Assembly (NCBI GenBank): GCA_016787525.1
Contig: JAEUUP010000086.1
Coordinates: 24,757 to 88,756 of the forward strand
DNA length: 64,000 nt
Source of the DNA: Saprospiraceae bacterium
GTDB lineage: Bacteria > Bacteroidota > Bacteroidia > Chitinophagales > Saprospiraceae
Direction: 5' to 3'
A model generated the notes under the pieces. It saw only the letters and a list, made by a program, of their open reading frames with translations, did not search any database and had not been told where the DNA came from. Below are positions 215 to 64,000 of this stretch, piece by piece; position 1 is the first letter of the stretch, and the number at the start of each line of letters is the position of its first letter. The position numbers were made by a program, and so were the translations under genes.

Positions 215-1618
215 ATGAAAAAAACGGCTTTAGTTCTTTCTTTGTTTTTATGTCACATTCCTCTTTTTGCTCAACTGACGGTGCGTCTGACTGCCGTTCC
301 GAGCAATACACCGATTTCTGACACAATCTTTATTGCGGGCAATTTCAATAATTGGAACCCGAAGGATTTGAGTAAAATTTTGATACGCCAAAGTGATGGC
401 ACTTACAAAATTACATTCTCCACAACCGTAACCAATATTGAATACAAATTCACAAGAGGTGCTTGGGCTTCTGTGGAAGGCAACGCAAGCGGTGGCGAAA
501 TCAGTAATCGAACGCTGACCTATAACGGCGGCATACAATCTATTGACAATCAAGTGCTTAGTTGGAAGGATTTGGTTCGTAATAGCAACACATCGGCAGC
601 CTCGAATGTGCGTATTGTGAGTCATAATTTTTATATGCCACAGTTCAATCGTACGCGCCGCGTCTTGATTTATCTACCCCCTCAGTATGCCGATACCTCG
701 AAACGTTTCCCTGTGATGTATATGCAAGATGGGCAAAATCTATTTGATAAATATACGTCTTTTTCAGGTGAGTGGGAAGTAGATGAAACGCTGAATAGGC
801 TGGCGGCGGCCGGCGACAAAGGCTGTATCGTTGTCGGTATTGAAAATGGTGGAGCGGATAGAATGGGTGAATACACGCCGTGGCGTAATGCGCGATATGG
901 CGGCGGTGATGGTGCAAAATATGCCCGTTTTTTAGTTGAAACTTTGAAACCTTATATTGATGCCAATTTTAGAACCAAATCTGATAGGTTGAATACGGCG
1001 ATTGGAGGCAGTTCGTTGGGTGGTTTGATTTCGATGTATGCAGCAGCTGAATATCAAAGTGTTTTTTCCAAAGCTCTGGTCTTTTCGCCCTCGTTTTGGT
1101 TCAATGATTCCTGTTTCACACAGGCTCGTTTGCGTGGCAAGCAGTTTGCAATGCGTTACTATTTTATGTCAGGTGGCGCGAACGAAGACCCAGATATGTT
1201 GCCAGATATTCAACAAATGGTGTCTATACTGAGGGGTGTCGGTTACACTGACGATGAATTTAAAGTTGTGACAAAAACCGATGGACAACACACCGAATGG
1301 TTCTGGGCGCGCGAGTTTGGTGATGGTTATAAATGGCTGTTTAGGGAAGCCACAACCAAGACGGATGTGGGGAATATTGATACAAAAGTTAAACTCTTTC
1401 CAAACCCTACAGATTCGCTTTTGACGATAGAAACGAGTGAAAATTTGAGCTTTACGAATATCGAAATTTATGACTATTTGGGTCGTTTGATGCGTAAAGA
1501 GCCTTTGGCATCGAATCGGACGGTCGTGGTTTCTTATTTGAAAGCGGGAAATTATATCCTTCGTTTGACCAAAGGAAATACAGTTTTGGCGACAAAACCT
1601 TTTGTAAAAGCGCATTAA
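215..1618 (+). CDS. Secreted esterase with N-terminal starch-binding-like domain and T9SS sorting domain
   Basis: 467 aa from ATG 215. An in-frame ATG at 59 exists, but the signal peptide (MKKTALVLSLFL..., ending LFAQ) and the promoter place the start at 215. Residues about 20-125 look like a CBM20/48-type beta-sandwich (FIAGNFNNWNP). They are followed by a putative esterase domain (PF00756 type) with the nucleophile motif GGSSLGG near residue 266. The last ~75 residues, from KLFPNPTDSLL, are a T9SS type A sorting domain. The family hydrolyses esters, for example feruloyl or siderophore esters; the substrate here is unknown. The protein is expected to be surface-attached or released. It contains two copies of the iterated motif, read as PPQY and LRG. 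Confidence 0.8.
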   Translation: MKKTALVLSLFLCHIPLFAQLTVRLTAVPSNTPISDTIFIAGNFNNWNPKDLSKILIRQSDGTYKITFSTTVTNIEYKFTRGAWASVEGNASGGEISNRTLTYNGGIQSIDNQVLSWKDLVRNSNTSAASNVRIVSHNFYMPQFNRTRRVLIYLPPQYADTSKRFPVMYMQDGQNLFDKYTSFSGEWEVDETLNRLAAAGDKGCIVVGIENGGADRMGEYTPWRNARYGGGDGAKYARFLVETLKPYIDANFRTKSDRLNTAIGGSSLGGLISMYAAAEYQSVFSKALVFSPSFWFNDSCFTQARLRGKQFAMRYYFMSGGANEDPDMLPDIQQMVSILRGVGYTDDEFKVVTKTDGQHTEWFWAREFGDGYKWLFREATTKTDVGNIDTKVKLFPNPTDSLLTIETSENLSFTNIEIYDYLGRLMRKEPLASNRTVVVSYLKAGNYILRLTKGNTVLATKPFVKAH

Positions 1619-1625
1619 AAACATG

Positions 1626-1661
1626 AAACTGCCACCGAAATGTGTGTTTCGGTGGCAGTTT
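1626..1661. terminator. Bidirectional hairpin between convergent genes
   Basis: The 15-bp arms AAACTGCCACCGAAA and TTTCGGTGGCAGTTT are separated by 6 bases and flanked by A/T runs. The hairpin sits between the converging esterase gene and the gene ending at 1665, so it can serve both. Confidence 0.85.
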
Positions 1662-1664
1662 TAA

Positions 1665-2249: not shown

Positions 2250-2291
2250 TGATTTTGACTTGTTTTTTGAGTAAAAACTACGGTTTATGAA

Positions 2292-3425: not shown

Positions 3426-3548
3426 AGTTTCGTTTTCAAAAAAAATGAATAAAATGCTTTAAATATTTTGTTGAGACAAATATATAAAAAACAAACCATT
3501 TTTTCTGTGTCCATTAACGCATCATTAACTTATTGTCTAATCTACTTT

Positions 3549-5153: not shown

Positions 5154-5191
5154 AGTTCAAATATTTGACTCAAAATGAGTTTTCAGAAAAG

Positions 5192-20305: not shown

Positions 20306-20370
20306 AAGGCAAAAATATTACTTTTGACCTTTTAGAAACACCTTCACCTCTTGATTATGCGCTCTCAGTG

Positions 20371-20640
20371 GACGGTTATGTAACCTCTGACTGACGGTTA
20401 TGTACTCTCAGCGGACGGTTATGTACTCTCAGCGGACGGTTATCTACTTTTCGCGGACGGTTATGTACCTACTTGTTGACGGTTATGTACTTTTCGCGGA
20501 CGGTTATGTACCTACTTGTTGACGGTTATGTACTTTTCGCGGACGGTTATGTACCTACCTGTTGACGGTTATGTACTTTTCGCGGACGGTTATGTACCTA
20601 CCTGTTGACGGTTATGTACTTTTCGCGGACGGTTATGCAA
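20371..20640 (+). repeat. Tandem array, 13 copies of a 21-22 bp unit
   Basis: GACGGTTATGTAC-type units start at 20371, 20393, 20414, 20435, 20456, 20478, 20499, 20521, 20542, 20564, 20585, 20607 and 20628. From 20456 the units alternate in tail sequence (TTTTCGCG, then CTACTTGTT or CTACCTGTT) and in length (22, 21, ...), giving a 43-bp higher-order unit. The intergenic array starts 66 bp after the DedA gene. Units are contiguous without spacers, so it is not CRISPR. Confidence 0.95.
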
Positions 20641-20719
20641 CTTTTGACCACCATAGACCACCCCCTCAGTATAACGGCATTTTGGTCGTGATTCAAAATA
20701 TATGCTGTGTTAAAAACAT

Positions 20720-22618: not shown

Positions 22619-23434
22619 ATGAATCTAAACCATTTCACATTAAAAATTGAGAACAAAATAGCGCATTTAGCCATTAATCGCCCCGAAAAAGCCAATTCAT
22701 TGCATCTCGAAGCGTGGTTGGAGTTGCGCGAAGCTCTGTTGTACTGCGACCAAACGCCCGAAGTACGCGCCATCATACTGAGTGGCAATGGCGAAAAACT
22801 GTTTTGCGCAGGCATAGACCTCGCCATGTTGATGTCCACGAACGAATTGCTCAACGATGATTGCGACGGGCGCAAAAGAGAGAAGTTCAGACGCTTTTTA
22901 CTCGATTTTCAAGACATGCTGACCACTTCAGAGAAAATATCGAAGCCCATTTTATCAGCCGTTCATGGCGGTTGCATCGGTGGCGGGTTGGATATTATTT
23001 GCGCAACAGACATGCGCTACTGCACAGCCGATGCTTATTTTGTCATCAAAGAGATTGATTTGGGCATGGTTGCCGATTTAGGAACGCTGCAACGGCTGCC
23101 CAAACTCATGCCAGACGGCTTAGTACGCGAATTGGCTTACACAGGCAGACCTCTTTCGGCGCAAGAAGCCCTCGGATGTGGTTTGGTCAATCGCCTATTC
23201 GCCACCAAAGCCGATATGTTGACCGAAGTGACAAAGATTGCAGAACGCATTGCGTCAAAATCGCCCCTTTCTATCAGAGGTACGAAGCGCAATCTGCTTT
23301 ATAGCCGCGACCATTCCGTTGCAGAGAGTTTGGAATATATGGCCAACTGGAATGCAGCCATGTTTTATTCACAAGATTTGATGGAAGCCTTTAAGGCGAG
23401 TATGACAAAAGAGCAACCAGAGTTTAGAGATTGA
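22619..23434 (+). CDS. Enoyl-CoA hydratase/isomerase family, likely dienoyl-CoA isomerase
   Basis: 271 aa, crotonase fold. CAGIDLAML and VHGGCIGGGLDIICATD form the oxyanion hole and CoA site. EIDLGMVADLGTLQRLP is very like the ECH1-type delta(3,5)-delta(2,4)-dienoyl-CoA isomerase motif, including the Glu and Asp pair used for proton shuttling. The predicted role is reshuffling double bonds during unsaturated fatty acid beta-oxidation. It would fit with the acyl-CoA dehydrogenase at 55862-57661, though they are not linked. The isomerase assignment over a plain hydratase is from motif memory. Confidence 0.8.
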   Translation: MNLNHFTLKIENKIAHLAINRPEKANSLHLEAWLELREALLYCDQTPEVRAIILSGNGEKLFCAGIDLAMLMSTNELLNDDCDGRKREKFRRFLLDFQDMLTTSEKISKPILSAVHGGCIGGGLDIICATDMRYCTADAYFVIKEIDLGMVADLGTLQRLPKLMPDGLVRELAYTGRPLSAQEALGCGLVNRLFATKADMLTEVTKIAERIASKSPLSIRGTKRNLLYSRDHSVAESLEYMANWNAAMFYSQDLMEAFKASMTKEQPEFRD

Positions 23435-27365: not shown

Positions 27366-29525
27366 TTAGTTCGCTTTGACAAATTGTTCTACTGTTTTGT
27401 ACGTGCCATTGTCGAAAGTGAAAAAATATAGACCTGCGGGCAATGTCGAAATATTGATGTGTTCTTCAACAATACCGCTTTCGATAGGATAATTTCTTTG
27501 CATCAATACACGACCTGTAACATCTGTTATTTTGATGTCGAAAGCTTGTTTGTCTGCGGTGGTCGCTCTGAATGTTACGTAATCTTTCGATGGATTTGGG
27601 AACATTTTGAGAGAGAATGCTTTTTTGACGTTCTCGATTGTTATCATTTTTGAATACAATTCTTTGCCGTCGGCATCTACTGTGCGCAAGCGATAAATAC
27701 TGAGGGGGTTGGGTTTAAGGTCGTCGAAGCTGTATTTATGTTTTTCAACGGTGTTGCCATGTGCTTTTACGCGACCGATTTCACCCCATTTTTCATTGTC
27801 TTTTCTTTCGATTGAGAAGTAGTCTGCATTTTTCTCTGTGGCTGTTTCCCATGTCAAGGCATTATAAGTACCTTGATTTTTACCTTCAAATACGGTCATC
27901 TCTACAGGAATAATGATGCCGCAACCAAAGGCTTGTGCCACCCACTCAGGATGATCAATATAAGGATTACCATTGCCTTGATAGGTCTTAATACAATTGT
28001 TTCTGTCAATATCTGCTTGCGTCACAGGGTCTTGAATGTGCCAATTGTACAAAGTTTGTACGTCCGCAACATCACCAATCGGGTGACTGTACGTAGTATT
28101 CATCTGAGTTTCATAAACAGTATAGAAATAGAATATCGCTCTTGCGGTGTTCCCTTTTTGTATTTCACGAGGTTCGTAGCTACCTGATGTGTATTCTGAA
28201 TACTCATTGATATTGCTGGAAGGGATGCTCGTCAATGGCGCATCTAAAAGGCGTTCCCATTTAGTTGTTTGTGCATCGGGGATTTCAGCGAATGGGCTGT
28301 TGCCTCTATCACTGTTCCATGTCTCATAAGTTGGGAACAAGTGGCACATATCACTCACCATAGGCGCATCTCCTCCGCCGAAGAAGCTTTGAGGTACGGT
28401 GTGTTCGGCATTGATGATACGACCGTTGGGTAATGAAATGCTGGTTGCCACACTTCCATACGGATGTGCTTGTGTGTATCCACCATAAATGCAAGTTACT
28501 GAGTTGTTGATATTATCACAATTGCCGTACATTCTGGAACGTGCGGTGTTGTAGCCTAAATCCGTATGCGTCGGCAAACCTGCTTTTACACTGGTTCTGA
28601 AAGTCGCACAATCCATGGCGGCACTTGTTGTGAAGCTACCCGAAAGTGGCGAACTCGTCACATAATCTATGGGCGATGAGCAAGTTTGGAAGTTATAGAC
28701 TTGAACATAATACGTTGTCGAAGCGGATAATCCTGTGACTGTGACACTTGTGCTTGTGTTCGTATAAACGACTTGTTGGCCGCCAGCATAGACTGTATTA
28801 GCGGTGTATGTTGTTCCGTCAACGGGTGCAGTGAAGCTGTTTGTCGTGTTGATGAGTACGAGCGTGTTTGAACCATCTCCTTTGACCCACGAAATATTTA
28901 CAGAACTGTTGGAAGCAGATGCGCTCAAGCTCGTGGCTTGTGTGGTCGGTGCGGTACAAGCGACCGCTCCTGCGATTTCAATATCATCAATTTGCCATTC
29001 TTTTGAGGCAGCAGCTGTGCCGTAGTAGCGGAAAGCAAAACGCACATTCGTACCTGCAATACTACTGATGTCGAAAGGCGCATGAGTCGTTTGCGCGCTC
29101 AAAGTTGTTGTCGTGTTGTTGCTCGAAGCGACGGTGGCGGGCAATGTAATGTTTGTCCAAGTGGTAGTGGATGGGTCGCCTGTGTAGTTTGTTGTGTATT
29201 TCAACTCCAAATTGATGGTGGGCGCAGGACCTGATGCCGCACCAGCATAACGATTCTTTGTTTTGAATGTGAACGTTTCGTTGGTCGAGTTATCCATGTT
29301 GATGGCGGGCGAAATGAGCCAGTCTAAATCATCTTCGTCTCCGAAACCGTTGATTTGAGCATAGCCTGCTGTGAAACGCCAAATGTCTGTTGCACTGGCG
29401 ACATCCACGGCTGTCCAAGTGCCTGCGGTGTTGGTGTTAAAATTTTCGGAATGAATGACGGTTTGAGCCGTTGTTGTGCTTACGATAGCAGTGAGAACTA
29501 AGAATAGTGAGACAATTCTTTTCAT
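27366..29525 (-). CDS. Secreted endonuclease I (EndA/NucM type) with adhesin-like, FN3 and T9SS domains
   Basis: 719 aa. A signal peptide is followed by a choice-of-anchor/jelly-roll domain (HSENFNTNTAGTWTAVDVA... to about residue 185) and a fibronectin-III-like domain (about 190-300). The endonuclease I domain comes next: YGNCDNINNSVTCIYGG, INAEHTVPQSFF, SDMCHLFPTYETWNSDRGN, EPREIQKGNTARAIFYF. AEHTVPQS and N-x-x-RGN match the metal/catalytic core of the family, which cuts DNA and RNA non-specifically. A T9SS domain begins MFPNPSKDYV. It is predicted to be released and to degrade extracellular DNA for nutrients. Promoter box at 29574. Iterated motif at 27698. Confidence 0.85.
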   Translation of the reverse strand: MKRIVSLFLVLTAIVSTTTAQTVIHSENFNTNTAGTWTAVDVASATDIWRFTAGYAQINGFGDEDDLDWLISPAINMDNSTNETFTFKTKNRYAGAASGPAPTINLELKYTTNYTGDPSTTTWTNITLPATVASSNNTTTTLSAQTTHAPFDISSIAGTNVRFAFRYYGTAAASKEWQIDDIEIAGAVACTAPTTQATSLSASASNSSVNISWVKGDGSNTLVLINTTNSFTAPVDGTTYTANTVYAGGQQVVYTNTSTSVTVTGLSASTTYYVQVYNFQTCSSPIDYVTSSPLSGSFTTSAAMDCATFRTSVKAGLPTHTDLGYNTARSRMYGNCDNINNSVTCIYGGYTQAHPYGSVATSISLPNGRIINAEHTVPQSFFGGGDAPMVSDMCHLFPTYETWNSDRGNSPFAEIPDAQTTKWERLLDAPLTSIPSSNINEYSEYTSGSYEPREIQKGNTARAIFYFYTVYETQMNTTYSHPIGDVADVQTLYNWHIQDPVTQADIDRNNCIKTYQGNGNPYIDHPEWVAQAFGCGIIIPVEMTVFEGKNQGTYNALTWETATEKNADYFSIERKDNEKWGEIGRVKAHGNTVEKHKYSFDDLKPNPLSIYRLRTVDADGKELYSKMITIENVKKAFSLKMFPNPSKDYVTFRATTADKQAFDIKITDVTGRVLMQRNYPIESGIVEEHINISTLPAGLYFFTFDNGTYKTVEQFVKAN

Positions 29526-31276: not shown

Positions 31277-31325
31277 GCGCTTCAAAAGACAGTTTGACCA
31301 AGTTATTATTTACTGGTTACTTATC

Positions 31326-31567
31326 ACATTTGTTTTTGCTTCAACGACATTTGTTTTTGCACTTATCACATTTGTTTTCGCTTCAACGACATTTGTTTTT
31401 GCTTTAACGACATTTGTTTTTATTGAAGCAAAAACAAATGTCGTTAAAGCAAAAACAAATGTCGTTGAAGCATAATTAAATGTCGTTGAAGCATAATTAA
31501 ATGTCGTTGAAGCGTAATTAAATGTCGTTGAAGCATAATTAAATGTCATTGAAGCGTAATTAAATGT
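31326..31567. repeat. Two mirrored 21-bp tandem arrays
   Basis: Five units beginning ACATTTG start at 31326, 31347, 31368, 31389 and 31410, exactly 21 bp apart. From about 31421 the same unit runs in the opposite orientation, with AAATGT at 31436, 31457, 31478, 31499, 31520, 31541 and 31562. Later units diverge from CAAAAACAAATG to CATAATTAAATG. Because 21 is a multiple of 3, both strands stay open by chance. Another unit appears at 31793 beyond the palindromic element. Confidence 0.95.
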
Positions 31568-31593
31568 CATTGAAGCATAATCAACATGAGTTT

Positions 31594-35216: not shown

Positions 35217-37727
35217 GTGTTTGTACAAGACATGAAAAACAAGTTGATGTTAAAGAATTACAAAAAACGGATGGTTTTAGATTACAAAACAGTGCATAAA
35301 AACGTGGTGAACAGTGAGAGGCATAATAAAGGGACGTTTTTACTACCCCTCAGTATCATTTTGTTTTTGAGCCTGTTTTCATCGTGCAAGGTTGATAAAT
35401 TTTTGCAAAAAGACCAATACATAGTTGGTACAAATAAAATAAATCTAAAAAATGTGTCCAGCAATCGCACTCGGACGAGTTTGCAAACCGATTTGGCCAC
35501 ACTGTATAAGCAACGTGATTTGCCCGATATTTTAGTCGGCAAATCCACATTTGGTGTGTGGGTTTGGTACAAAAAGAAAGAAAATCCGAATCCAAAACGC
35601 TTTCAACGCTGGCTTTATAACACATTTGCCAATGAACCTGCCATTTATGACCCAAAACAACGCGAAGCGACACAAAGCTTAATGGTTCAATACTTACGCA
35701 ATATCGGCTATCCCTACCCCTCCGTACAAAGCGACCACGATTATAAGAGCAAAGATAAAGGATTGGCGACACTGACCTATACAGTTAACCCTGGCGTGTT
35801 GTATGTGATTGATTCTCTGAATTTTATCTGCAATGATACAGAAGTATCCTACCTTCTGAACGATACAAAAGACAAAACCCTGCTTTCAAAAGGACAGCCG
35901 ATTGATATTCGTCTGTTCGAGCAAGAAAAACAGCGCATCACGACCGAATTAAATAACTTCGGTTACGCCCGTTTTAATGCCAACTATATCACACAATTTG
36001 AAGGTGATACAACCGACCTACGTTTCAATGCCAAAGGCGAACGACTCGTCAATTTGTCCATAACGGTTCAGACACCCAATAATAGACCCAATCATCAACG
36101 ATACAAGACGGGTCAAGTCACTATTTTCCCGAACTACGATGCTCGTCTGGGCGAACCCACTCAATTTGACACAACCATACAGGATAAAAAGATTTTCCGA
36201 ACTTATGATGGTCGTTTGGGTATCAAATTAGACCCCCTCAGTAATGCCATCCCTTTGACCGAAAATCAATTATTCAGCAAAGAAAAGACTGAACAATCCA
36301 TCCGATTGCTTACAAACTTGGGCATGTATAAGTTCGTGAACATCAAACCAGACATTGATAAAAGCGATACTTCGTCCATTTCTTACAAAATATACCTCAC
36401 CCCTGCTCAAAAAATGAGTTTTGACGGCGGTGTTGAGTTGAATTATTCAAACATCAATGCAGCGAACAACAACAATCGCTTAGGTCGTATCGGTTTAGCC
36501 ACAGATTTGGGCTTCATTCATCGCAACTTGTTTGGTGGAGCCGAACGTTTCAACTCACGTTTTTCATTTGGTCTCGACCGTCAGTTGGCTTTCAGTGCAG
36601 AAGCAAGTGGCGGTTTGTCGTATGATTTGCGGTTTGAGAACGCCCTTTCCATTCCCAAATTCATCAATTTATCGAAATCATGGTTGTTTTTCAATCAAAT
36701 CGGACTTGTAAAATCGGCTTTCTACAAAGATTTGAAAGAAAACTCAAGTTCTGATTTGACCTTGAGCTATGTGTTGAGTGACCGACTGAGTTTGGCACTT
36801 TATCGCATACAGCAATTCAACTTAGGCACAAGGTATGTCTTGAAAAGGAAAAACGGCTCTGAGCAATACAGCATCAATCCAACAGGTGTCGAATTGCAAC
36901 TTGCCAAGCTCGATATAGAATTTGAAGCCAAAGCAGATGAAAGATTGAAGCGCAGCTTAACCCCTCAGTTGATGACAGGTTTAGCCGCTCGTTCGTTGCG
37001 TTTTGAACGCAGCAGCGCAACGAATAAATTGGGCGAGCGTTGGCAATTCATTGGTCAAATAGAGCAATCGGGTTTGGAAATCTTACTTTTAGAAAAGTTC
37101 TTCAATAGTGGCAACGACTTCAAAGTTGGTGAAAACTTGCCCTTTTCAAAGTTTCTGCGTGGCGAAATAGACTTACGTTACAACCGACAATTGGCAGCCA
37201 AGCGCACATTTGCTGCACGCTTGTCGTTAGGCATTGCAGAGAGTTTGGGCAGTGAGCCAGTCCCTTATTTGAAGCAGTTTTTCGTTGGCGGCCCCAATAG
37301 TATTCGCGGCTGGGTGATTCGAGACATCGGTCCCGGCGGTTTTTTTGACATCACAAGAGAGACCGTAAAGACCAAAACATTTCCATTCCAAGCGGGCGAT
37401 GCTAAATTTGAGTTCAATTCAGAGTTTCGCTTCCCTCTGTTTTGGCGATTCAACAGTGCCGTTTTGTTCGATGCAGGCAATATTTGGAATTTGAAAAAGG
37501 ATGAGAAATTGCCCAATGGCAATATTGATAAGTTTTGGTTCGACCAGATTGCGATAAGTTCAGGTATCGGTTTGCGTTTGGATGTGACTTATGCGACGAT
37601 TCGATTTGATTTTGGCTTCAAACTGCGCGAGCCTTATGAGCGTGATGGTGTGAATTGGATTCCTTTGAAGGATTACTCGTGGCGAAAGAATGTTACGCCT
37701 AACTTTGCTTTAGGGTTTCCTTTTTAG
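35217..37727 (+). CDS. TamL-like Omp85 outer-membrane lipoprotein
   Basis: 836 aa as drawn. The lipobox LFSSC follows a hydrophobic stretch about 55 residues from ATG 35217, an overlong leader. A GTG at 35307 would give a normal signal peptide (NSERHNKGTFLLPLSIILF) and may be the true start. POTRA-like domains (residues about 90-400) are followed by a 16-strand barrel of the Omp85 type, with FFVGGPNSIRGW, the lid-lock motif RGW, and a C-terminal RFDFGFKLREP...FALGFPF. TamL is the Bacteroidota BamA/TamA relative that inserts outer-membrane and surface proteins, normally with TamB. No tamB neighbours it here. Three iterated-motif copies. Confidence 0.85.
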   Translation: MFVQDMKNKLMLKNYKKRMVLDYKTVHKNVVNSERHNKGTFLLPLSIILFLSLFSSCKVDKFLQKDQYIVGTNKINLKNVSSNRTRTSLQTDLATLYKQRDLPDILVGKSTFGVWVWYKKKENPNPKRFQRWLYNTFANEPAIYDPKQREATQSLMVQYLRNIGYPYPSVQSDHDYKSKDKGLATLTYTVNPGVLYVIDSLNFICNDTEVSYLLNDTKDKTLLSKGQPIDIRLFEQEKQRITTELNNFGYARFNANYITQFEGDTTDLRFNAKGERLVNLSITVQTPNNRPNHQRYKTGQVTIFPNYDARLGEPTQFDTTIQDKKIFRTYDGRLGIKLDPLSNAIPLTENQLFSKEKTEQSIRLLTNLGMYKFVNIKPDIDKSDTSSISYKIYLTPAQKMSFDGGVELNYSNINAANNNNRLGRIGLATDLGFIHRNLFGGAERFNSRFSFGLDRQLAFSAEASGGLSYDLRFENALSIPKFINLSKSWLFFNQIGLVKSAFYKDLKENSSSDLTLSYVLSDRLSLALYRIQQFNLGTRYVLKRKNGSEQYSINPTGVELQLAKLDIEFEAKADERLKRSLTPQLMTGLAARSLRFERSSATNKLGERWQFIGQIEQSGLEILLLEKFFNSGNDFKVGENLPFSKFLRGEIDLRYNRQLAAKRTFAARLSLGIAESLGSEPVPYLKQFFVGGPNSIRGWVIRDIGPGGFFDITRETVKTKTFPFQAGDAKFEFNSEFRFPLFWRFNSAVLFDAGNIWNLKKDEKLPNGNIDKFWFDQIAISSGIGLRLDVTYATIRFDFGFKLREPYERDGVNWIPLKDYSWRKNVTPNFALGFPF

Positions 37728-45024: not shown

Positions 45025-45672
45025 TTAACAAAAACGGTAAACAACGCTCATAATCCAACGTTTCGTATTCAAAACCAAGCCTTTGTAAGTTTTTGTAATA
45101 GTCATTGAGGTTTGGTAATAGTATTTTTCGGAAGGAATAAACCACGCTTGTTCGCCCAGTTTTTCGGCTAAAAACCATTTTTCGATTAAACGGGCTGTTC
45201 GACCATTGCCGTCATTAAAAGGATGAATTTTTAGTAAAAGCAAGTGTATAACAGCAGCATAATAGAATTTTTCGATAGTGCTGAGTTGTTCCGATAATAA
45301 AAACGAGATGTCGTTTATCTGTATGTTTTTAGTCAATAGAGCATGTACTTTTAATAAATTGGTTTCGTTTAAAGGTTTTTTTTTGAGCAAAAGTATAGAC
45401 TTTAAAAAGGTCATCAGTCTTTTTGGTGTAATTGGGTTGAAATTTTACACCCATAAATTTGTGCTTCATATAACTATCTGCTTCGATAGGCTCTCCTTCA
45501 ATTTTTGAAGAATAAACCGAAGCAACCGAAGTATAAAAACTAAAGCTATCATTTGTAAAGCGCGGGTTTCGCCTTTGGGTATAGAACGAGCTAAATCAAA
45601 GTCTATTAAACTTTCAAAATCAGGTAAGTATTTGTCAAAAACAATTTTAAACATAAATTGATTTTTTTGCAA
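45025..45672 (-). pseudogene. Fic-family protein gene broken by two frameshifts
   Basis: Three frames together spell a Fic protein. The N-terminus is MQKNQFMFKIVFDKYLPDF (start 45672). A second frame continues FSFYTSVASVYSSKIEGE and KHKFMGVKFQPNY, to YTFAQKK. The third (45025-45414) carries PLNETNLLKVH and the Fic core HPFNDGNGRTARLIEKW. The first shift lies near 45560-45590. The second sits in a run of nine T's on the plus strand (45376-45384), where losing one base restores the frame. The SIEGE-like inhibitory segment is recognisable. Fic enzymes transfer AMP to proteins. It is broken or, less likely, phase-variable, and it lies opposite to and inside the ilv cluster. Confidence 0.8.
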
Positions 45673-50112: not shown

Positions 50113-51450
50113 ATGTTAGAAGCCATTTCACCTATTGACGGACGGTATGCTCGTCAGACCAAAGAATTATCAAACTATTTTTCGGAGTTTGCTTTGATTC
50201 GCTATCGCGTATTCGTTGAAATTCAATACTTTATAGCTTTGGCGAATTTTCCGTTACCACAATTAGAAGGATTTGAAGAAGATAAAATCGAAGCGTTAGA
50301 TAAGATTTTTGAATCATTCAGCTTGGAAGACGCACAAGCCATCAAAGACATCGAAAAGGTCACAAATCATGATGTCAAAGCAGTTGAATATTTTTTGAGA
50401 GATAAATTTGATGCTTTGGGTCTCGAAAAATATAAAGAATTTATCCATTTTGGCTTGACTTCGCAAGATGTGAACAATACAGCGACCCCCCTCAGTATCA
50501 AACATGCTGTGGAGCGCATTTATTTGCCGATGATTCAAAAAATTAGAAATGAATTGAATATCAAAGCTCAAGAATGGCGCGATATTGCTTTGCTTGCACG
50601 CACTCATGGGCAACCTGCCAGTCCGACAACACTCGGTAAAGAAATTCGCGTTTTCGTTGAACGAATTGATAATCAACTTGTTTTATTTAAGCAAATACCT
50701 CTTAGTGCCAAATTTGGCGGCGCAACAGGCAATTTCAATGCGCATACAGTCGCTTATCCACTCATTGACTGGCGTGTTTTTGCGGATGATTTTGTGAAAG
50801 AATATTTAGGGCTGGAACGCCAACAAGCGACGACTCAAATTGAGCATTATGACAATATGGCTGCTTTGTTTCAAGCTATGAGTCGTATCAACACAATTTT
50901 AATTGATTTGTGCCGCGATATTTGGTCATACGTCTCAGTTGATTATTTCAAACAAAAAACCAAGGCGGGCGAAGTTGGTTCATCGGCTATGCCACACAAA
51001 GTGAATCCTATTGATTTTGAAAATGCAGAAGGAAATTTAGGTCTTGCCAATGCTATTTTTGAACACTTGGCAGCGAAATTGCCCGTTTCACGTTTGCAAA
51101 GGGACTTGACAGATTCTACTGTTTTGCGTAATATCGGTGTACCAATTTCACATACACATATTGCTTTTACGTCAATACTGAGGGGTCTCGACAAGTTACT
51201 CTTGAATGAACAAAAACTCTACGATGATTTAGAAGCCAATTGGATGATTGTTGCAGAAGGTATTCAGACAATTTTAAGACGTGAAAATTACCCTCATCCT
51301 TACGAAGCACTCAAACAACTGACCAGAGGAAAAACGGCTATCGGGAAAAAAGATATGGTTGATTTTATTGACACTTTAGATGTCAACGAAGATGTAAAAG
51401 AAGAGTTGCGTACCTTATCACCACATACATATATTGGAGTTAAACTATAA
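50113..51450 (+). CDS. purB: Adenylosuccinate lyase
   Basis: 445 aa. It cleaves adenylosuccinate and SAICAR in purine synthesis. ISPIDGRYARQTKEL is the typical start; LTSQDVNNTA, ARTHGQPASPTTLGKE (catalytic His) and the fumarase-superfamily signature GSSAMPHKVNPIDFENAEGN (catalytic Ser loop) are all present. Full length. Follows the MBL gene closely; an operon is likely. Two iterated-motif copies (ATPLS at 50486, SILRG at 51176). Confidence 0.95.
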   Translation: MLEAISPIDGRYARQTKELSNYFSEFALIRYRVFVEIQYFIALANFPLPQLEGFEEDKIEALDKIFESFSLEDAQAIKDIEKVTNHDVKAVEYFLRDKFDALGLEKYKEFIHFGLTSQDVNNTATPLSIKHAVERIYLPMIQKIRNELNIKAQEWRDIALLARTHGQPASPTTLGKEIRVFVERIDNQLVLFKQIPLSAKFGGATGNFNAHTVAYPLIDWRVFADDFVKEYLGLERQQATTQIEHYDNMAALFQAMSRINTILIDLCRDIWSYVSVDYFKQKTKAGEVGSSAMPHKVNPIDFENAEGNLGLANAIFEHLAAKLPVSRLQRDLTDSTVLRNIGVPISHTHIAFTSILRGLDKLLLNEQKLYDDLEANWMIVAEGIQTILRRENYPHPYEALKQLTRGKTAIGKKDMVDFIDTLDVNEDVKEELRTLSPHTYIGVKL

Positions 51451-55858: not shown

Positions 55859-55861
55859 TTT

Positions 55862-57661
55862 TTAAACCAAAACAGTGCTGTCTAAGCTGACTGTTAATTT
55901 ATCAAAATTCAATAATTGACCATTCAGCGCATTTGTTTTGGGCAATTCATATTCAAAGAAATAGCGCATCGCAACAATTTTACTTTCATAAAACTGTTTT
56001 TCGTCTTCAATATCCACATTTTGAGCCAACGCTTTTTCTGCTGCGATGCCTTGCTTCAACCATTGCCAAGCGATGACGACCAATCCGAAATAATCCAAAT
56101 ACAAAGTCGCATCTGCCAACATCACTTCTGCACCTTTTTCACGACCATTCACAAGAATTTTCTGTGTCAAAGTGGTTAATTCAGTCATTTTTTCACCCAA
56201 TTGCTGTGCAAATACGGCTGTTCTATCCGATTTCGCCCCCTCAGTAATGGCGGCATTTACTTCATTTGTGAACAAGATAAAAGCTTTTCCATTGAGCATT
56301 GACACTTTTCGTCCTAAAATATCTAAGCCATGAATACCTGTTGTACCTTCATAAATGGCATTGACGCGAATGTCGCGATAAAGCAATTCAAGCGGATAAT
56401 CGTCGCAATAGCCTGCACCGCCTAAAGTCTGAATCGCTGTCGAAACAGACTGAATACCCAATTCCGAAGGATAAGATTTAGCAATTGGAGTCAATAATTC
56501 GAGCAACAAATGAGCATTAGCCGCCTCTTCTTCATTGCCAACATGTGCTAAATCGGCATAAAAACTACATTGCATCAAAAGAGCAATGCCCCCCTCAGTA
56601 GTCGCCTTCTGAAACAACAACATGCGGCGTACATCGGCATGTTCAACAATCAAAACAGGTGGGTCGAGTGGGTTTTTACTGCTTGGCATACGCCCTTGAG
56701 GTCGCTCTTTGGCATATTTCAACGATGTATAGTAAGCTGCCGAGGCTTGTCCAGCAGCCACCAAACCCGTACCGATACGCGCCTCATTCATCATTTGGAA
56801 CATATAAGGTAAGCCTTTGTGAGGCTCGCCCACCAAATAACCCAAGCAATCACCCTGTTCACCGAACATCAAATGCGCTGCGATATAGCCTTTTTGACCC
56901 ATTTTGCCATAAATACCAGCACAAGTGACATTGTTTTGCACCAAATCACCATTTTCGGGACGGAATTTTGGCACTACAAAAAGCGAAATACCCTTTGTGC
57001 CAGCAGGCGCACCTTTGATGCGAGCGAGGCAAAGATGCACCACATTGTCCACTGCATCGTGGTCGCCACCTGAGATAAAAATCTTTTGCCCTTCAATTTT
57101 ATACACCCCCTCAGTATCGGTTGGCTCTGCGGAGGTCAAAATATCGGTCAACGACGAGCCAGCTTGTGGTTCAGTCAAAGCCATTGTGCCTTGCCACGAA
57201 CCATCGAACATAGCAGGCAGATAAGTATCTTTCAAAGCTTGCGAACCAAAACTTGAGATGAGGTTGGCTGCGCCTTTGGTCAGAAACGGGTAACACGCAT
57301 TGACATTGGCTGCATAGAATGTGAGCAGTGCCGCGTTACACAAAACGTGAGGCATTTGCAAACCACCCACTTCGGTGGGCAAAGCCGCTGCAATCCAACC
57401 ACCTTCGGCGATGCTTTGTATCAAAACTTTCAGTTGCGGGTGCGTTGTGACTTTCCCATTGTCAAAAATGGCTTTTTTTCTATCCATTTCGACATAAAAG
57501 GGAAAAAGTTGCGTATCAGAAATCTGTTTTGCGGCATCCAAAGCCATATCAAAAGCCTCGTGATTATAGTCTGCATAAGCATCGTGTTGGCACAATTTAT
57601 CTGTACCTAAAACCTCGTAAAGTAAAAATCGCAAGTTGCGATGGCTGATGTATTGATTCAT
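55862..57661 (-). CDS. Acyl-CoA dehydrogenase
   Basis: 599 aa, the larger C-terminally extended family (ACAD with extra C-terminal domain). FAD-dependent; it introduces the first double bond in fatty acyl-CoA beta-oxidation. Seen: GTMALTEPQAGSSLTD, IEGQKIFISGGDHD, LGYLVGEPHKGLPYMFQMMNEARIGTGL, and the catalytic Glu region RDIRVNAIYEGTTGIHGLDILGRK. Full length; the C-terminus (LDSTVLV) ends at the MITE-like element. Three iterated-motif copies in minus orientation (TEGA, TEGG, TEGV). Confidence 0.9.
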   Translation of the reverse strand: MNQYISHRNLRFLLYEVLGTDKLCQHDAYADYNHEAFDMALDAAKQISDTQLFPFYVEMDRKKAIFDNGKVTTHPQLKVLIQSIAEGGWIAAALPTEVGGLQMPHVLCNAALLTFYAANVNACYPFLTKGAANLISSFGSQALKDTYLPAMFDGSWQGTMALTEPQAGSSLTDILTSAEPTDTEGVYKIEGQKIFISGGDHDAVDNVVHLCLARIKGAPAGTKGISLFVVPKFRPENGDLVQNNVTCAGIYGKMGQKGYIAAHLMFGEQGDCLGYLVGEPHKGLPYMFQMMNEARIGTGLVAAGQASAAYYTSLKYAKERPQGRMPSSKNPLDPPVLIVEHADVRRMLLFQKATTEGGIALLMQCSFYADLAHVGNEEEAANAHLLLELLTPIAKSYPSELGIQSVSTAIQTLGGAGYCDDYPLELLYRDIRVNAIYEGTTGIHGLDILGRKVSMLNGKAFILFTNEVNAAITEGAKSDRTAVFAQQLGEKMTELTTLTQKILVNGREKGAEVMLADATLYLDYFGLVVIAWQWLKQGIAAEKALAQNVDIEDEKQFYESKIVAMRYFFEYELPKTNALNGQLLNFDKLTVSLDSTVLV

Positions 57662-58657: not shown

Positions 58658-61588
58658 TCAATTTTTTACAAATTTTGTTCGCACCTTAACCCCCTCAGTA
58701 TTTTCAACTTCTAAGATATAGATGCCGTTGGTCAAATTTTGTGTAGTCATTGAATATTGTGTTGTTTCGCTAACCAAAACACCCTGCAAATTATAAATTT
58801 TTGCAACTTTCATATCTGTCAAGTCCTCAATTGTTAAAATATTTTTCACAGGATTGGGCGAGATGTGAATACTGAGGGGGTGCTTCGCACGAGATACAGA
58901 AACGACTGGAGAATATTTATAAGCCCCATCGTAGTCCACTTGTTTAAGCCGATAATACATAATTTTACTGTCGGCTGGATTATTGTCCAAAAAGTGATAG
59001 TTGTTTTTTTCTTTCGAGAATCCCTGAGCTACTGTTTGTCCAATGCTTTGGAAAAATTGCCCATCTATACTACGTTCAATATCAAAATAATGTGCATTGA
59101 GTTCTGATGCCGTTGTCCAAGATACGTCAACCGTTTTTTCGTTTTGCCATTTCGCCGAAAAAGAAAGCAGCTCAACAGGGACAACTGTGATATTTGCCAA
59201 ATTAAATTTTGCCATCACAGGATAGTGGTCTGTTGTTCTCGTGCCATAACTGGTAATATACGTCTGTGGTGAACCCACACGAACAGAAACTAAGGCATTG
59301 TTCATCTCATTCGACCCAATGATGTGGTCAATCATATCCGTAAATCCTGTTGTACTTTTTGCCCCTGCTTTACTGAGGGGTAGTGTAAAAAGTTGGTAAC
59401 GGCTCGCATCGTTTATGTAGGTGTTGTAGGTGCTGATTGTGGTAGAAACGTTTGACACTGTCTCGTCGAGGTCGTCGTTAAAGTCGCCTGACATGATGAA
59501 TGGTAAATTGGGATACGTTGCATCTAAGACAGTTTTCAGTTTTTCAACATCGTATTTTCGCATATCATAGACTTCTTGCGCTTCATTGGTACTTGTGTTG
59601 GCTCGTGCATGGATGCCTAAAAAACCTAAATATCGGGTTGTTCCATTGATGGTGACATTGGCTGTCAATAGATAAGGCAAACGACCCGATGCCCAAAATC
59701 GTGTGCGTGTGTTCGGATAATCGGGCAATAGAGTTGTATCGTTTTTATAGGCAGTCAACAATGGCACTGCCGAAACATTGCTAAAAACTGCATCTTTATA
59801 GACAAAACACAAACGTTGACCATAACCATCAGCCAAAGAAGTGTTGCTGTAACTGTACTCTGGTGAACATTTGCAAGAATAACCCGCCATGGTCGAAACC
59901 ATTGATTTAAAGCCAATTGAGTCCGACACCTCTTCCACTTGGTACAAATCAGCGTTGATAGTCGTCATCACCGTTTTAACATTTGCCAATTGCAATGCGT
60001 CGTCAGTTGGGCCTTGGCTTGGGTGTCCGAACCATTCCAAATTCCAAGCGACGACATCAAGTGTGGTTTCTTCTTGAAAATTGGCATCGGTCACACCTGT
60101 ACCCGTCGTAACAAAATCCGCCGTTGAGCGTGGATACAATTGCAAATTTGAGCCATAAACTCCTGCTATACCCGTGACATGCCCTGTAGCGGATTGGACA
60201 GCAGAGCCGACAATATTGTTGGAATAGGGCGCAGCACTACTCAATATCCGAACAGGGACGTAGCCGAATGCATAATTGGTATTGGCAGAGTAAGTACCCC
60301 CTGTACCAGGAAATTGGATATTTTGAATGGTCACAAGCTCGCCTTCATAAGTTGCCAAATCAGCCAGTGTAATGACTCTCGGCGTGGGTATTGACTGAGG
60401 GGTAGTGATTTTTTCAAATGACAACATAGTAATTTGGTCTAAACTATTAAAGTTTGATTTGTAACCAAATACTTCGACAGAGTCGCCAATTTGCAAACCA
60501 TAATCTACTCCAAAATTGGTCGAACCGCTGTAAACAGAAATACCACCTGAATTATCTTGTATGAATATTTGATTAGTGCCAAACTCCGTTGCAACTGTCA
60601 CTCGCCCGCCTGTGAAGACATTTGTACCAGTCGTTCTACTTCTCACAGTGGCAATGTTTGTGCGAGTGGGTTGAGTAATGACAGAGCCGCTGAGGGCAAT
60701 ATTTTTGGTGGTTATGCCTGTACTCGTCAATGCCAAATTGCCACTGAATGTACCTGTTGTGACACCCGATAAGCGCACATAAACGGTCTTGACAGATACA
60801 CGTCCCCCTGTTTGTGGAAAAGCCAAACTATTGGTATAACCTGTTGATTCTGAAAGGCTTATTTCATATCCTGTTGGTGTTGTTAACACCAAATCGCTTG
60901 TCAAACCAAATCCAGAGGCTAAAAAACTCTTTGCTACTGAGGGGGTACCTTGCAGAATGGTTGTGAAAGAAATAGAAGATTTTGAAGATAAAATAGTCGG
61001 ATTGGTCACATCTGACATAGTTCCTTCGACGCTCAAATCGTCAATACGCCAAGTGCCTGCTGAACTTGATGCACCATAGGCGTAAATACGAAAGGTGACA
61101 CTTGTTGTAATATATTGAAAATCAATGCCTAAATTAACACTCTGTGGTGTAGTACCGAATGTCGTTGAGGTTGTGGAAGGTGATGGCGCGTTTAAATCGT
61201 TGGCATATCCATCCAAACTGGAGCGTAAGACCCACGAAGTTGGACCTGTGCCTGAACGTTGTTCGTAAAATGAGATACTACCCAATGACATTGCGTAGTT
61301 ATTGTTTGGTGAGATGGTGAATTGCAAATATTTATTTGCATTCAATGATGGGGTATTGAATCCCGTTGTCGAGATGGCTTTGTCAGTCGCCACACTCGAA
61401 TTACCAGCAGGGTATGTGATTGTCCCAGCTGACCAAGTAGCATCTGACACTGTCCCGTTTGTTGGTGTGGTAGTCGCACTCGTTTGAGAATCAAACTCCC
61501 AAAGTGCTAGTGTTTGTGATAATATACTAGAGTCAATACACAAGATTGAAAATAGCGTAGCAAGACAAAATTTGTAAAATTGATTCAT
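58658..61588 (-). CDS. Large secreted endonuclease/exonuclease/phosphatase-family protein with T9SS domain
   Basis: 976 aa from ATG 61588 (MNQFYKFCLATLFSILCIDSS); the frame opens to 61672 but lacks a signal peptide there. Order: signal peptide; jelly-roll domain (about 25-200); Ig-like (about 205-310); OB-fold, YhcR/DUF5689-like (VRSRTTGTNVFTGGRVTV..., about 310-480); EEP nuclease domain (LDVVAWNLEWFGHPSQG, YQVEEVSD, FIMSGDFNDDLDE, TTDHYPVMAKF) with the metal-binding Asn, Glu, Asp and His. Then FN3-like and T9SS domains (ISPNPVKNILTIEDL, ending KFVKN). It probably degrades extracellular DNA. Six iterated-motif copies. Confidence 0.8.
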   Translation of the reverse strand: MNQFYKFCLATLFSILCIDSSILSQTLALWEFDSQTSATTTPTNGTVSDATWSAGTITYPAGNSSVATDKAISTTGFNTPSLNANKYLQFTISPNNNYAMSLGSISFYEQRSGTGPTSWVLRSSLDGYANDLNAPSPSTTSTTFGTTPQSVNLGIDFQYITTSVTFRIYAYGASSSAGTWRIDDLSVEGTMSDVTNPTILSSKSSISFTTILQGTPSVAKSFLASGFGLTSDLVLTTPTGYEISLSESTGYTNSLAFPQTGGRVSVKTVYVRLSGVTTGTFSGNLALTSTGITTKNIALSGSVITQPTRTNIATVRSRTTGTNVFTGGRVTVATEFGTNQIFIQDNSGGISVYSGSTNFGVDYGLQIGDSVEVFGYKSNFNSLDQITMLSFEKITTPQSIPTPRVITLADLATYEGELVTIQNIQFPGTGGTYSANTNYAFGYVPVRILSSAAPYSNNIVGSAVQSATGHVTGIAGVYGSNLQLYPRSTADFVTTGTGVTDANFQEETTLDVVAWNLEWFGHPSQGPTDDALQLANVKTVMTTINADLYQVEEVSDSIGFKSMVSTMAGYSCKCSPEYSYSNTSLADGYGQRLCFVYKDAVFSNVSAVPLLTAYKNDTTLLPDYPNTRTRFWASGRLPYLLTANVTINGTTRYLGFLGIHARANTSTNEAQEVYDMRKYDVEKLKTVLDATYPNLPFIMSGDFNDDLDETVSNVSTTISTYNTYINDASRYQLFTLPLSKAGAKSTTGFTDMIDHIIGSNEMNNALVSVRVGSPQTYITSYGTRTTDHYPVMAKFNLANITVVPVELLSFSAKWQNEKTVDVSWTTASELNAHYFDIERSIDGQFFQSIGQTVAQGFSKEKNNYHFLDNNPADSKIMYYRLKQVDYDGAYKYSPVVSVSRAKHPLSIHISPNPVKNILTIEDLTDMKVAKIYNLQGVLVSETTQYSMTTQNLTNGIYILEVENTEGVKVRTKFVKN

Positions 61589-61826
61589 GCTGAGTGATTG
61601 GTTTAATAAATTCAATTCATAAAATACTGAGGGGGCGATTTGACACAACAAAAAATGGGCTATCAAAAGCACGTGCCATGCAATGATTCCATTTTTCGTT
61701 TTGAGAATGTATTTTTGGAAATTGACTAACGTGATTGAGTCAAATTGAGTAGAGGCTGCAAAAATATAAGTTTAGGTGTATAGCGATTTGTTTTTAGTTT
61801 CTATTCACAATAAGTTAACATGTGCA

Positions 61827-62921
61827 TCATAGTAGGCTGCGCCGTTCGTTCACATACTCGCGCCACATATCTAAGCCTGTTTGAAAATCTGCTGGTAAAT
61901 CTGCTTCAAATTGCATCCATTTACCTGTTGTTGGATGTTCAAAACCCAATGAACGGGCATGTAAGGCTTGTCGCGGCAAAATATCCATGGTTTTCAGAAC
62001 AAATTGCTTGTATTTGGTAAAAATAGTGCCTTTCAAAATGCGATGCCCACCGTATTTGGCATCCATAAAAAGCGGATGACCGAGATATTTCATGTGGACA
62101 CGGATTTGGTGCGTACGCCCAGTTTCCAATTTACATTCCACCAAACTAACGTAGTACATAGGCTCGACGGTTTTGTAATGCGTTACAGCATATTTGCCTT
62201 GCTCACCTTCTGGAAACGGAATAATAACCGAATGTTCGTTAGGGCTTCGTCCGATATGCACATTTATCGTACCTTCCAACTCATCGGGTTGACCCCAAAC
62301 CAACGCCCAATAGCGACGTTCGATGGTGTGGTAAAAAAACTGTCTTGCCAAGTGCGTCATGGCAAATTGGTTTTTTGCAACCACCAACAAACCACTTGTG
62401 TCTTTATCAATCCGATGCACCAAGCCAGGTCTATCGTCACCGCCCACTTCCGAATAGTCTGGCATTTTATCTTTCAAATAGTAAGCTAAACCATTGACCA
62501 ATGTTCCTCGATAATTGCCAACCCCTGGATGACAAACCAAGCCAGGTTGTTTATTTATCACAATCACATCATCATCTTCATACACAACATTGAGCGGCAC
62601 ATAGTCAGGTTCGACACGACCATGCTCAGGCATCTCAGGAAAAACAATACTGATATGTTGAAGTGGTTTTATTTTATAGTTGGGTTTGACAGGCTTATCG
62701 TCCACCAAAACAGAGCCAGCACGGATGGCATTTTGAATCTTGTTGCGGCTAACTTTTGCTAATTTATCGCTCAAAAACTTGTCAATACGCGTAATAGTCT
62801 GACCTTTATCAGCCATAAAACGGTGATGCTCATATAGTTCATCGTCTGTCTGACCGACTTGTTCCTCTTGTTCTAATTCAGAATCATCAGGTGTCGGCAT
62901 GAAGTCTTCGTTGGGTGTCAT
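61827..62921 (-). CDS. RluD-type large-subunit rRNA pseudouridine synthase
   Basis: 364 aa. An N-terminal S4 domain (QTITRIDKFLSDKLAKVSRNKIQNAI..., residues about 40-110) precedes the RluA-type catalytic domain with PGLVHRIDKDTSGLLVVAKN, carrying the catalytic Asp near residue 170, and QIRVHMKYLGHPLFMDAKYGG. It isomerises uridines in 23S rRNA helix 69 or relatives (the RluD/RluC group). Full length. 18 bp from the trmN6-type gene upstream, so probably co-transcribed. Confidence 0.85.
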   Translation of the reverse strand: MTPNEDFMPTPDDSELEQEEQVGQTDDELYEHHRFMADKGQTITRIDKFLSDKLAKVSRNKIQNAIRAGSVLVDDKPVKPNYKIKPLQHISIVFPEMPEHGRVEPDYVPLNVVYEDDDVIVINKQPGLVCHPGVGNYRGTLVNGLAYYLKDKMPDYSEVGGDDRPGLVHRIDKDTSGLLVVAKNQFAMTHLARQFFYHTIERRYWALVWGQPDELEGTINVHIGRSPNEHSVIIPFPEGEQGKYAVTHYKTVEPMYYVSLVECKLETGRTHQIRVHMKYLGHPLFMDAKYGGHRILKGTIFTKYKQFVLKTMDILPRQALHARSLGFEHPTTGKWMQFEADLPADFQTGLDMWREYVNERRSLL

Positions 62922-62939
62922 ATTTGAATATCGAATGTT

Positions 62940-63686
62940 TTAGAAAATTGTGTAAAAATCTTTAGTCAACTCGCGATACCCCTCAGTATAGTCGCGTTCA
63001 TCACGGCTGTTTTGAATGATGAGTTCGTCATGCGAGAAAGTGCGATTTGTCAATTCAAATTGCAGCAATAATCTCTCGATGCCTTTGTCTTGTTTTGGTC
63101 GGACATCTGAGCGATGAGTGAGGTAAAAACCATAGGTACGGGCAATTTCGATAAATCTTAAACCTTCTATCAAAGGTAAAATGACGCAAAAGCGACCATT
63201 TTTATTTAATAACTCTCTCGTTGCATTGAGTAAATCGCCATGAGGTAACTTAACTGTATGTCGAACATTGGTTTTGTCTCCATTACTCGACAATGTACCT
63301 CCCGTAAAAAATGGCGGATTACTGACCACTAAATCGTATTTATGTATATGATTTTTCGCAAAATTTTGAATAGAATCGTGATAAACAGTCAGTTTTGAGG
63401 CGAAGGGAGAATCTGCCATATTTTCTTTGGCTTGCTCTACGGCCATTTCATCAATTTCAACGGCATGAACCAATGCCCCCTCAGTATTTCCAACTTTTTG
63501 AGCCAACATGATGGCAATAACACCTGTTCCTGTACCAACATCAAGTATAGATTGAGCATTGGATACATCAGACCATGCACCTAAAAGAACACCGTCTGTG
63601 CCAACTTTCATAGCACAACGGTCTTGATGAATTTTAAATTGCTTGAATGTAAAAGGCTTGTTTAACGTACTTTTCTCTTTTAACAT
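62940..63686 (-). CDS. tRNA1(Val) (adenine-37-N6)-methyltransferase-like protein
   Basis: 248 aa. FKQFKIHQDRCAMKVGTDGVLLGAWSD, then the SAM site SILDVGTGTGVIAIMLAQK, and the catalytic DLVVSNPPFFTGG (NPPF, near residue 125), of the TrmN6/YfiC family that methylates N6 of A37 in tRNA-Val. Class I Rossmann methyltransferase, cytoplasmic. The substrate is inferred from family. Upstream of the RluD-type gene. Iterated motif at 62979 and 63476. Confidence 0.85.
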   Translation of the reverse strand: MLKEKSTLNKPFTFKQFKIHQDRCAMKVGTDGVLLGAWSDVSNAQSILDVGTGTGVIAIMLAQKVGNTEGALVHAVEIDEMAVEQAKENMADSPFASKLTVYHDSIQNFAKNHIHKYDLVVSNPPFFTGGTLSSNGDKTNVRHTVKLPHGDLLNATRELLNKNGRFCVILPLIEGLRFIEIARTYGFYLTHRSDVRPKQDKGIERLLLQFELTNRTFSHDELIIQNSRDERDYTEGYRELTKDFYTIF

Positions 63687-64000
63687 ACATTTTAGTTGTA
63701 AATTGAGCTACGAATATATACGATGCAACGAATCAATTTTATTAAGCCACCCCTCAGTAATTTTCGCAAAAATCGCATTAATTAACGAAAATTAATGTTT
63801 TTTGTTCATTTTTATAAAATGCTCTTTTGTATGAGTAAACTATTATTGATTGATGATTAACAATACTTCGGTAGTTTTTTAAGCGTAAATAACGCCGCCT
63901 GTGGCGGCGGAGTGGACTTTTTGGAGGGAAGGTTTAATTTTTTTCAAGTTCGGGCTGCGCCCGAACTTGAAAAAAATTAAACCTTCCCTCCATTCCCCCT
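63687..64000. other. Intergenic end with half repeat and motif copy
   Basis: It holds GAGCTACGAATATATACGAT (63703), related to the ilvD-stop inverted repeat, an iterated-motif copy at 63750, a short GC hairpin (CGCCGCC, TGT, GGCGGCG; 63893-63909) and the long hairpin at 63923-63991. No gene seen. Confidence 0.6.
63923..63991. repeat. Long perfect hairpin at the window end
   Basis: Perfect 33-bp arms begin GGAGGGAAGGTTTAATTTTT (63923-63955) with loop TGC and pair with 63959-63991. The build (long perfect arms, 1-3 base loop) is the same as the twin 86-bp hairpins and 12786-12839, but the sequence differs. Confidence 0.9.

Follow-up and report, generated by a model that had tools for sequence, protein, structure and literature searches.

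A 9-bp word repeated about once per kilobase

The window analysed here is a stretch of 64,000 nucleotides (64 kb) from the genome of a Saprospiraceae bacterium (assembly GCA_016787525.1, contig JAEUUP010000086.1, positions 24,757 to 88,756). Exact word search reveals in it an array of 74 copies of the word ACTGAGGGG, spread over both strands from 678..63758, against about 0.15 copies expected under a second-order Markov model. Thirty-five copies are on the + strand (first base at 1228, 3774, 3862, 4987, 5109, 5526, 6861, 9936, 10206, 11188, 12186, 15980, 19552, 21264, 23460, 24408, 27242, 27699, 29643, 29893, 30459, 30910, 34798, 37758, 43802, 48248, 48834, 51177, 52785, 53163, 58871, 59372, 60394, 60936 and 61626). 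The 39 copies on the − strand read CCCCTCAGT on the + strand (lowest base at 678, 2367, 8291, 8719, 10742, 11769, 12598, 15623, 18621, 20662, 22446, 25220, 25781, 32867, 33860, 34533, 35346, 36234, 36961, 40180, 40649, 41932, 43246, 44406, 44987, 46663, 47863, 49944, 50488, 54188, 55348, 55595, 56237, 56591, 57107, 58691, 62979, 63477 and 63750). A preliminary description, made by eye from the letters of the window, had given the same 74 sites with the same 35/39 division, a chance expectation of about 0.2, and a leading T in about 68 copies; our recount is identical, the leading T being present in 68 of the 74. A G or a T directly after the word (71 of the 74 copies) and the phased A/T flanks described below are additional features.

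The whole host genome (G000; 7,267,541 bases in 169 contigs, 98% complete) contains 7,346 exact copies (3,680 on the + and 3,666 on the − strand), i.e., one per 0.99 kb, against seven copies of the reversed word used as control, which excludes the Markov-expected genome-wide frequency that the preliminary description had named as a possible refutation. The full signal is WTACTGAGGGGK, set in the A/T tracts described below; the 11-mer TACTGAGGGGK is present in 6,552 copies. On contig C6, the + copies seemed to form a long run, but this was rejected as a listing artefact, a direct count being balanced (11 + and 12 − copies in locus L083).

The word is mostly found in its exact form. Allowing up to one mismatch raises the genome count to 8,299 (control, 540), corresponding to 953 one-mismatch copies versus 533 for the reversed word; in 1.09 Mb of the genome, 151 such copies are present versus 67 expected under a fourth-order Markov model. 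Near-misses of ACTGAGGGG therefore occur at about twice the chance level, and exact copies at hundreds of times that level. With the composition-based model employed for uptake sequences, the overrepresentation falls from 281 to 0.19 between zero and one mismatch, a 1,482-fold drop, compared with 92-fold in H. influenzae and 82-fold in N. gonorrhoeae (PMC1939737). The window itself contains only four one-mismatch copies, at 22777, 35717, 48924 and 58095; among the four near-misses proposed in the preliminary description, 22777 is a true one-mismatch copy and 35706 lies close to the one at 35717, but none is present at 26777 or 51879. The copy ACTGAGTGG at 22777..22785 (+), which has the leading T, is possibly a decayed word. 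Among the 187 one-mismatch copies present in 1.44 Mb, 87 retain both the preceding T and the following G or T (about 15% would be expected from composition alone), and G-to-A changes likewise make up 87. By a rough reckoning, about 80 of the 187 would be decayed words, approximately one per 18 intact words (1,456 in the same 1.44 Mb). We infer that the exact word is maintained in this genome.

A comparable iteration is known for HIP1 of cyanobacteria, a word of unsettled function, and ACTGAGGGG could by analogy be maintained via a methyltransferase or another modification or defence system. HIP1 (GCGATCGC) is a palindrome for which cognate orphan methyltransferases are known (PMC4390886), whereas ACTGAGGGG is asymmetric; the likeness to HIP1 suggested in the preliminary description is thus the weaker of its two comparisons, and we consider such an origin improbable.

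Placement, spacing and origin of the copies

Our own open reading frame (ORF) calls cover 81% of the 1.09 Mb and place 835 of its 1,105 copies inside predicted genes, 265 between genes and 5 on gene edges. The reading frame in which the word gives a stop is used by none of the coding sites, and copies opposing the gene direction are in weak excess (449 vs. 386, p = 0.03). The mean spacing is 971 bp and is more even than random: the variance/mean ratio of sites per 10 kb is 0.51 (lowest in 1,000 random sets, 0.55), with 45 gaps shorter than 150 bp (lowest in the random sets, 125) and 27 longer than 3 kb (lowest, 31). Close inverted pairs are rare, only 3 of the 1,071 neighbour distances being below 25 bp. 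No gap exceeds 6 kb in the 1.09 Mb, i.e., no motif desert that could signal a recent island was detected, and seven regions round integrase matches carry from 2 copies in 4.1 kb to 22 copies in 20 kb.

The G-rich, asymmetric character of the word is shared with Chi sites, and a Chi-like self-mark, i.e., a word that stops an exonuclease/helicase or a defence nuclease, or turns it to repair, and thereby drives host and phages to dense carriage, is our second choice. Known Chi words occur with a strand bias and at a much lower density, and lack long phased A/T flanks; an orientation bias along the replication direction is likewise expected of KOPS. ACTGAGGGG, by contrast, has no orientation bias (3,680/3,666) and its strand is not linked to GC skew (r = 0.12, t = 1.18, 101 windows). 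Although phage densities and the distribution among relatives, both described below, bring some support to this explanation, we regard it as unlikely.

Only 9 of the 74 window sites can be aligned to the genome of a member of the same genus (G001), five of them entirely without gaps and four with gaps in or near the site. We also compared 92 coding sites, namely those among the 835 for which a match of at least 35% identity in another genome spans the site and its flanks, using the first such match. In these alignments, 225 of the 236 motif residues are opposite a residue and 11 opposite a gap, compared to 39 of 1,656 flank residues opposite a gap; motif residues match the homologue in 74 of 236 cases (31%) and flank residues in 814 of 1,656 (49%). 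Because five of the nine comparable sites align gaplessly with G001, the word seems to arise by substitution, and we take it that these substitutions were made at some cost to the proteins. The acyl-CoA dehydrogenase gene (55862..57661, −) harbours three copies (56237, 56591 and 57107), each read in frame as Thr-Glu-Gly (TEG); many of the 39 homologues listed also read TEG at these sites, as do nearly all of the 12 closest ones (80–85% identity). The picture of a word imposed on proteins is therefore mixed, with three TEG out of three shared by many homologues in the dehydrogenase versus 92 sites that are, taken together, less conserved than their flanks.

These alignments also bear on the possibility that the word is a short mobile element, or a product of assembly or contamination. 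The high copy number and the four gapped sites out of nine would fit such an origin, but only about 12 bp are shared between copies, five sites are gapless and few motif residues face a gap, so that mobile insertion is disfavoured. An artefact of a single assembly, which the preliminary description had considered, is excluded because eight separate virus records of the IMG/VR database contain the word. Taken as a whole, this explanation is very improbable.

Phased A/T tracts flank the word

A flank profile pooled from 1,100 aligned copies of the 1.09 Mb shows T at −1 (95%), A or T at −2 (84%) and G or T at +9 (95%). No other base is strongly conserved, and the only pattern beyond about 12 bp is one of base composition. 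A/T content oscillates on both sides of the word, every 10.5 bp upstream and every 10.9 bp downstream; on neither side does any of 500 random-position sets reach this phasing. The tracts are centred at about −13, −24, −34 and +14, +25, +35. The pattern is alike in 814 coding and 259 intergenic copies; a periodicity imposed by alpha-helices (3.6 residues) was thus rejected as its origin, since the intergenic copies are phased as well. The phasing is carried by AA/TT steps and not by TA, so that the flanks resemble the rigid, bent DNA of A-tracts. The copy at 51177–51185 (+), with T at −1 and T at +9, can serve as an example; the segment 51137..51220 corresponds approximately to the stretch of phased A/T tracts in the pooled copies. 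It is located within an ORF (50113–51450) that looks adenylosuccinate-lyase-like by eye, and its alignment with the G001 orthologue is gapless, from which it follows that this copy was made by substitution.

Helical phasing over several turns, in AA/TT rather than TA, points to DNA bent round a protein, and the word could mark binding sites of a nucleoid (chromosome-organising) protein that bends or wraps the DNA approximately every kb. The even spacing, with no gap above 6 kb, would agree with this third choice. Nucleoid proteins, however, rarely demand an exact 9-mer, the same-genus genome G001 does without the word, and phages, which have no chromosome to organise, carry it densely. A role in nucleoid organisation therefore appears doubtful, more so than a Chi-like mark.

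The word is present in phages

Eight IMG/VR virus records, with eight different dataset numbers, contain the word; two of them correspond to the same phage (99.96% over 7.4 kb). Since these records were found with two-copy patterns, they are not an unbiased sample and their density is possibly inflated. Three records counted whole contain 26 copies in 26.5 kb, 19 in 22.8 kb and 29 in 36.8 kb, with no copy of the backward word, and record L269 has only 2 copies in the 6.8 kb read. Domain searches in five of the eight records detected portal, terminase, tape-measure, head-protease, MuB-like and integrase genes, several of which contain copies of the word; for record L260, the only match is a weak one to portal proteins (E 3e-5). 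Exact copies number 59 in 67.5 kb of phage-record DNA, next to 15 with one mismatch, and the flanks correlate with the host flank profile (r = 0.66, a value that none of 1,000 random sets reached). Among 20 genomes searched, only the host has a terminase related (38% identity) to that of one of the word-bearing records. It is encoded by a 3.2-kb contig with 4 word copies (G000:C129, L268), which is probably a prophage or a phage piece of this host.

For comparison, the uptake signal sequence (USS) of Pasteurellaceae is present in 17 copies each in phages HP1 (32.4 kb), HP2 (31.5 kb) and Aaphi23 (43.0 kb), and the other USS dialect in 6 copies in PHL101 (34.5 kb), i.e., at no more than about half a copy per kb. 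A density of about one per 1.2 kb in the three records counted whole would be expected if the word protected DNA inside the cell, as in the Chi-like explanation. Restriction sites are usually avoided rather than enriched in phages, a further argument against a modification or defence system.

Distribution among relatives

The host is a member of the Bacteroidota: its IlvC exhibits 80–87% identity to those of Saprospiraceae and other Bacteroidota in the 80 loci kept, one Ignavibacteria metagenome-assembled genome (MAG) included, and sorting tails of the type IX secretion system (T9SS) are present on host proteins. The preliminary description had proposed to look for conservation of the word in relatives. 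None was observed: the word is above background in 0 of 708 other Bacteroidota genomes searched, G001 included (genomes counted by distinct handles, with overlaps removed from the sum). The 9-mer occurs in 0 to 32 copies in 59 relatives (backward word, 0 to 40), and the 11-mer TACTGAGGGGK in at most 7 copies in 297 family and 394 phylum genomes (backward word, at most 11); G001 itself has 8 copies of the word and 3 of the backward word. This absence would also fit a recently acquired nuclease, as a Chi-like mark could require.

No similar dispersed word that could represent a sister dialect was detected in 92 genome samples, all 6 kb or longer and the majority near 20 kb (71 of the 80 IlvC loci, G001, G002, G003 and 18 of 20 further stretches, those below 6 kb being omitted); in two controls, the same test recovered the word from single 20-kb pieces of the host genome. 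The top words of L080, L001, L006, L078, L023 and G001 were rejected as dispersed words, being local tandem or clustered arrays. Four G001 loci (L160, L162, L166 and L107) carry arrays of a short CCTATGTG-like unit, and a similar unit is arrayed in the locus of a Phaeodactylibacter MAG (L001); clusters of AGTATCAAG / AGATATGAG repeats, oriented either way, are present in the Mucilaginibacter and Carboxylicivirga loci L006, L078 and L023. Among the titles listed from the open-licence PMC literature, none refers to a DNA uptake word of Bacteroidota or Saprospiraceae; the 20 titles listed of the 117 papers in which the word occurs as letters are unrelated.

Candidate uptake genes

The host genome has one comEC match (G000 C7:137935-139845), followed by a gene (C7:136723-137931) for a 402-residue protein with four HHH_3 stretches, a ComEA-like candidate with helix-hairpin-helix (HhH) repeats. 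The same pair is present in 6 of 10 family members inspected, G001 included.

In Riemerella anatipestifer, another member of the Bacteroidota, transformation involves ComEC, DprA, ComF and RecA together with four unusual proteins: a DUF5689/DUF5017 protein, an outer-membrane protein, a HhH protein and a DUF1343 protein, whose locations are predicted (PMC8459023). The DUF5689/DUF5017 protein, located at the surface, is essential for transformation (PMC8459023). A member of the Bacteroidota can therefore take up DNA with non-pilus parts. The host of the word shares with Riemerella the phylum, ComEC and a HhH protein, and the DUF5689 and DUF5017 domains are also encoded in the window, where they are associated with nuclease domains, unlike in Riemerella. 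According to Pfam, one of these two window proteins (27366..29525, −) is a predicted secreted DNase composed of DUF5017, Endonuclease_1 and a T9SS sorting tail, and the other (58658..61672, −) a predicted secreted nuclease composed of DUF5689, Exo_endo_phos (24.1 bits, for a cut-off of 24.5) and a T9SS sorting tail. They are a lead only, not evidence of uptake; no further DUF5689 or DUF5017 relative was detected by phmmer in 1.44 Mb. The term 'uptake sequence' is absent from the text of PMC8459023.

Other features of the window

A tandem array of the GGACGGTTATGTAC type, unrelated to the word, is located between ORFs at 20355–20637 (period 43, 6.3 copies, half-unit of about 21 bp); the word copy at 20662 lies just past it. 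Two adjoining arrays of 21-bp units occupy 31319–31581, in a stretch without any ORF of 100 residues. A small ORF with a Fic domain is located at 45025–45414, between genes that by eye are ilvN-like and hydrolase-like.

A possible DNA uptake sequence in Bacteroidota

The exactness, density, even spacing, orientation indifference, bent-DNA flanks and substitution origin of the word are together as expected of a self-label driven by transformation. We therefore favour, with a probability of roughly one half, the interpretation that TACTGAGGGGK set in phased A/T tracts acts as a DNA uptake sequence served by a pilus-independent machinery such as that of Riemerella. A putative surface receptor, both sequence-specific and DNA-bending, would read the word before the DNA enters the cell; DNA of kin carrying the word would enter cells and recombine at a higher frequency, with the result that word-less alleles would give way to word-bearing ones (molecular drive). 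The benefit would saturate within one imported fragment, leading to the even spacing of about 1 kb, and the outer membrane would be crossed by a Riemerella-like apparatus (surface DUF5689 protein, outer-membrane protein, periplasmic HhH protein and ComEC) without a type IV pilus.

The resemblance to uptake sequences of Neisseria and Pasteurellaceae put forward in the preliminary description is supported by how dense and exact the copies are, by their regular spacing on both strands without bias, by the helically phased A/T tracts and by their carriage in phages. Like the word, the USS has an exact 9-bp core present about once per kb and in host phages, with a spacing of about 1,000 bp and AT tracts beside the core (PMC7811141). 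Our flank profile, applied to 38 non-redundant sites out of 46 from phages HP1, HP2 and Aaphi23, places the A/T tracts of the USS at +13 and +24, about one helical turn apart. The two words are unrelated and belong to different phyla, and ACTGAGGGG differs from the USS by tracts phased on both sides over more turns and by a sharper contrast with mismatched forms. The DNA uptake sequence (DUS) of Neisseriaceae is also a dense and exact word: kingDUS is present in 5,918 copies in 2.4 Mb, one divergent base allowed adding 21% (PMC3630211), and DUS spacing has been tied to the length of conversion fragments (PMC2397512). As in all DUS dialects but one (PMC3630211), ACTGAGGGG gives a UGA stop in one frame. 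In contrast to the Neisseria DUS, whose close inverted pairs are frequent and act as terminators, it forms hardly any such pairs and has phased flanks. The receptors of DUS and USS are minor pilins (ComP, ComN). Prediction of the USS receptor is treated in PMC12616744.

Several observations weigh against an uptake sequence, and the missing pilus is the main objection. Searches for com and pilus competence genes, suggested in the preliminary description, yielded the comEC match in the host genome, but nothing above the cut-off for PF00437 (pilus/type II secretion ATPase; four weak matches below it) and no secretin (PF00263), so that the machinery used by bacteria with known uptake sequences appears to be absent. 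The remaining hardware is common in relatives: comEC is present in 33 of the 36 genomes searched for it and has the HhH gene as a neighbour in 6 of 10 relatives inspected, all of them without the word; the hardware alone therefore does not predict the word. The small USS yardstick is best fitted by a period of 13.0 bp, not 10.5. Finally, with one copy per 1.16 kb, the phage records are 1.6 times as dense in the word as HP1 and HP2 are in the USS; a mark beneficial to DNA within the cell could also lead to such a density, but the two-copy patterns used to find the records may have biased it upwards. Because the tests for a pilus-based machinery and a shared dialect revealed neither, we do not classify the word as a member of the DUS or USS.

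To our knowledge, the only bacteria with established labels for recognising self-DNA in transformation are two proteobacterial families that rely on type IV pili. Slightly more tentatively than for an uptake function as such, we suggest that the word may be the first uptake sequence outside Pasteurellaceae and Neisseriaceae, in which a pilus-less member of the Bacteroidota would read WTACTGAGGGGK in bent, wrapped DNA via a new kind of receptor and phages would have adopted the word. If this is true, self-labels evolved again on different hardware, in Bacteroidota without a detected pilus motor or secretin, and the word could be used as bait for isolating the putative receptor. If uptake is wrong, the word remains, at about one per kb in host and phages and in apparently bent DNA, and we know of no system that accounts for such a combination. 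With a genome of the same genus that lacks the word, the rise of such a label would be open to comparative study.

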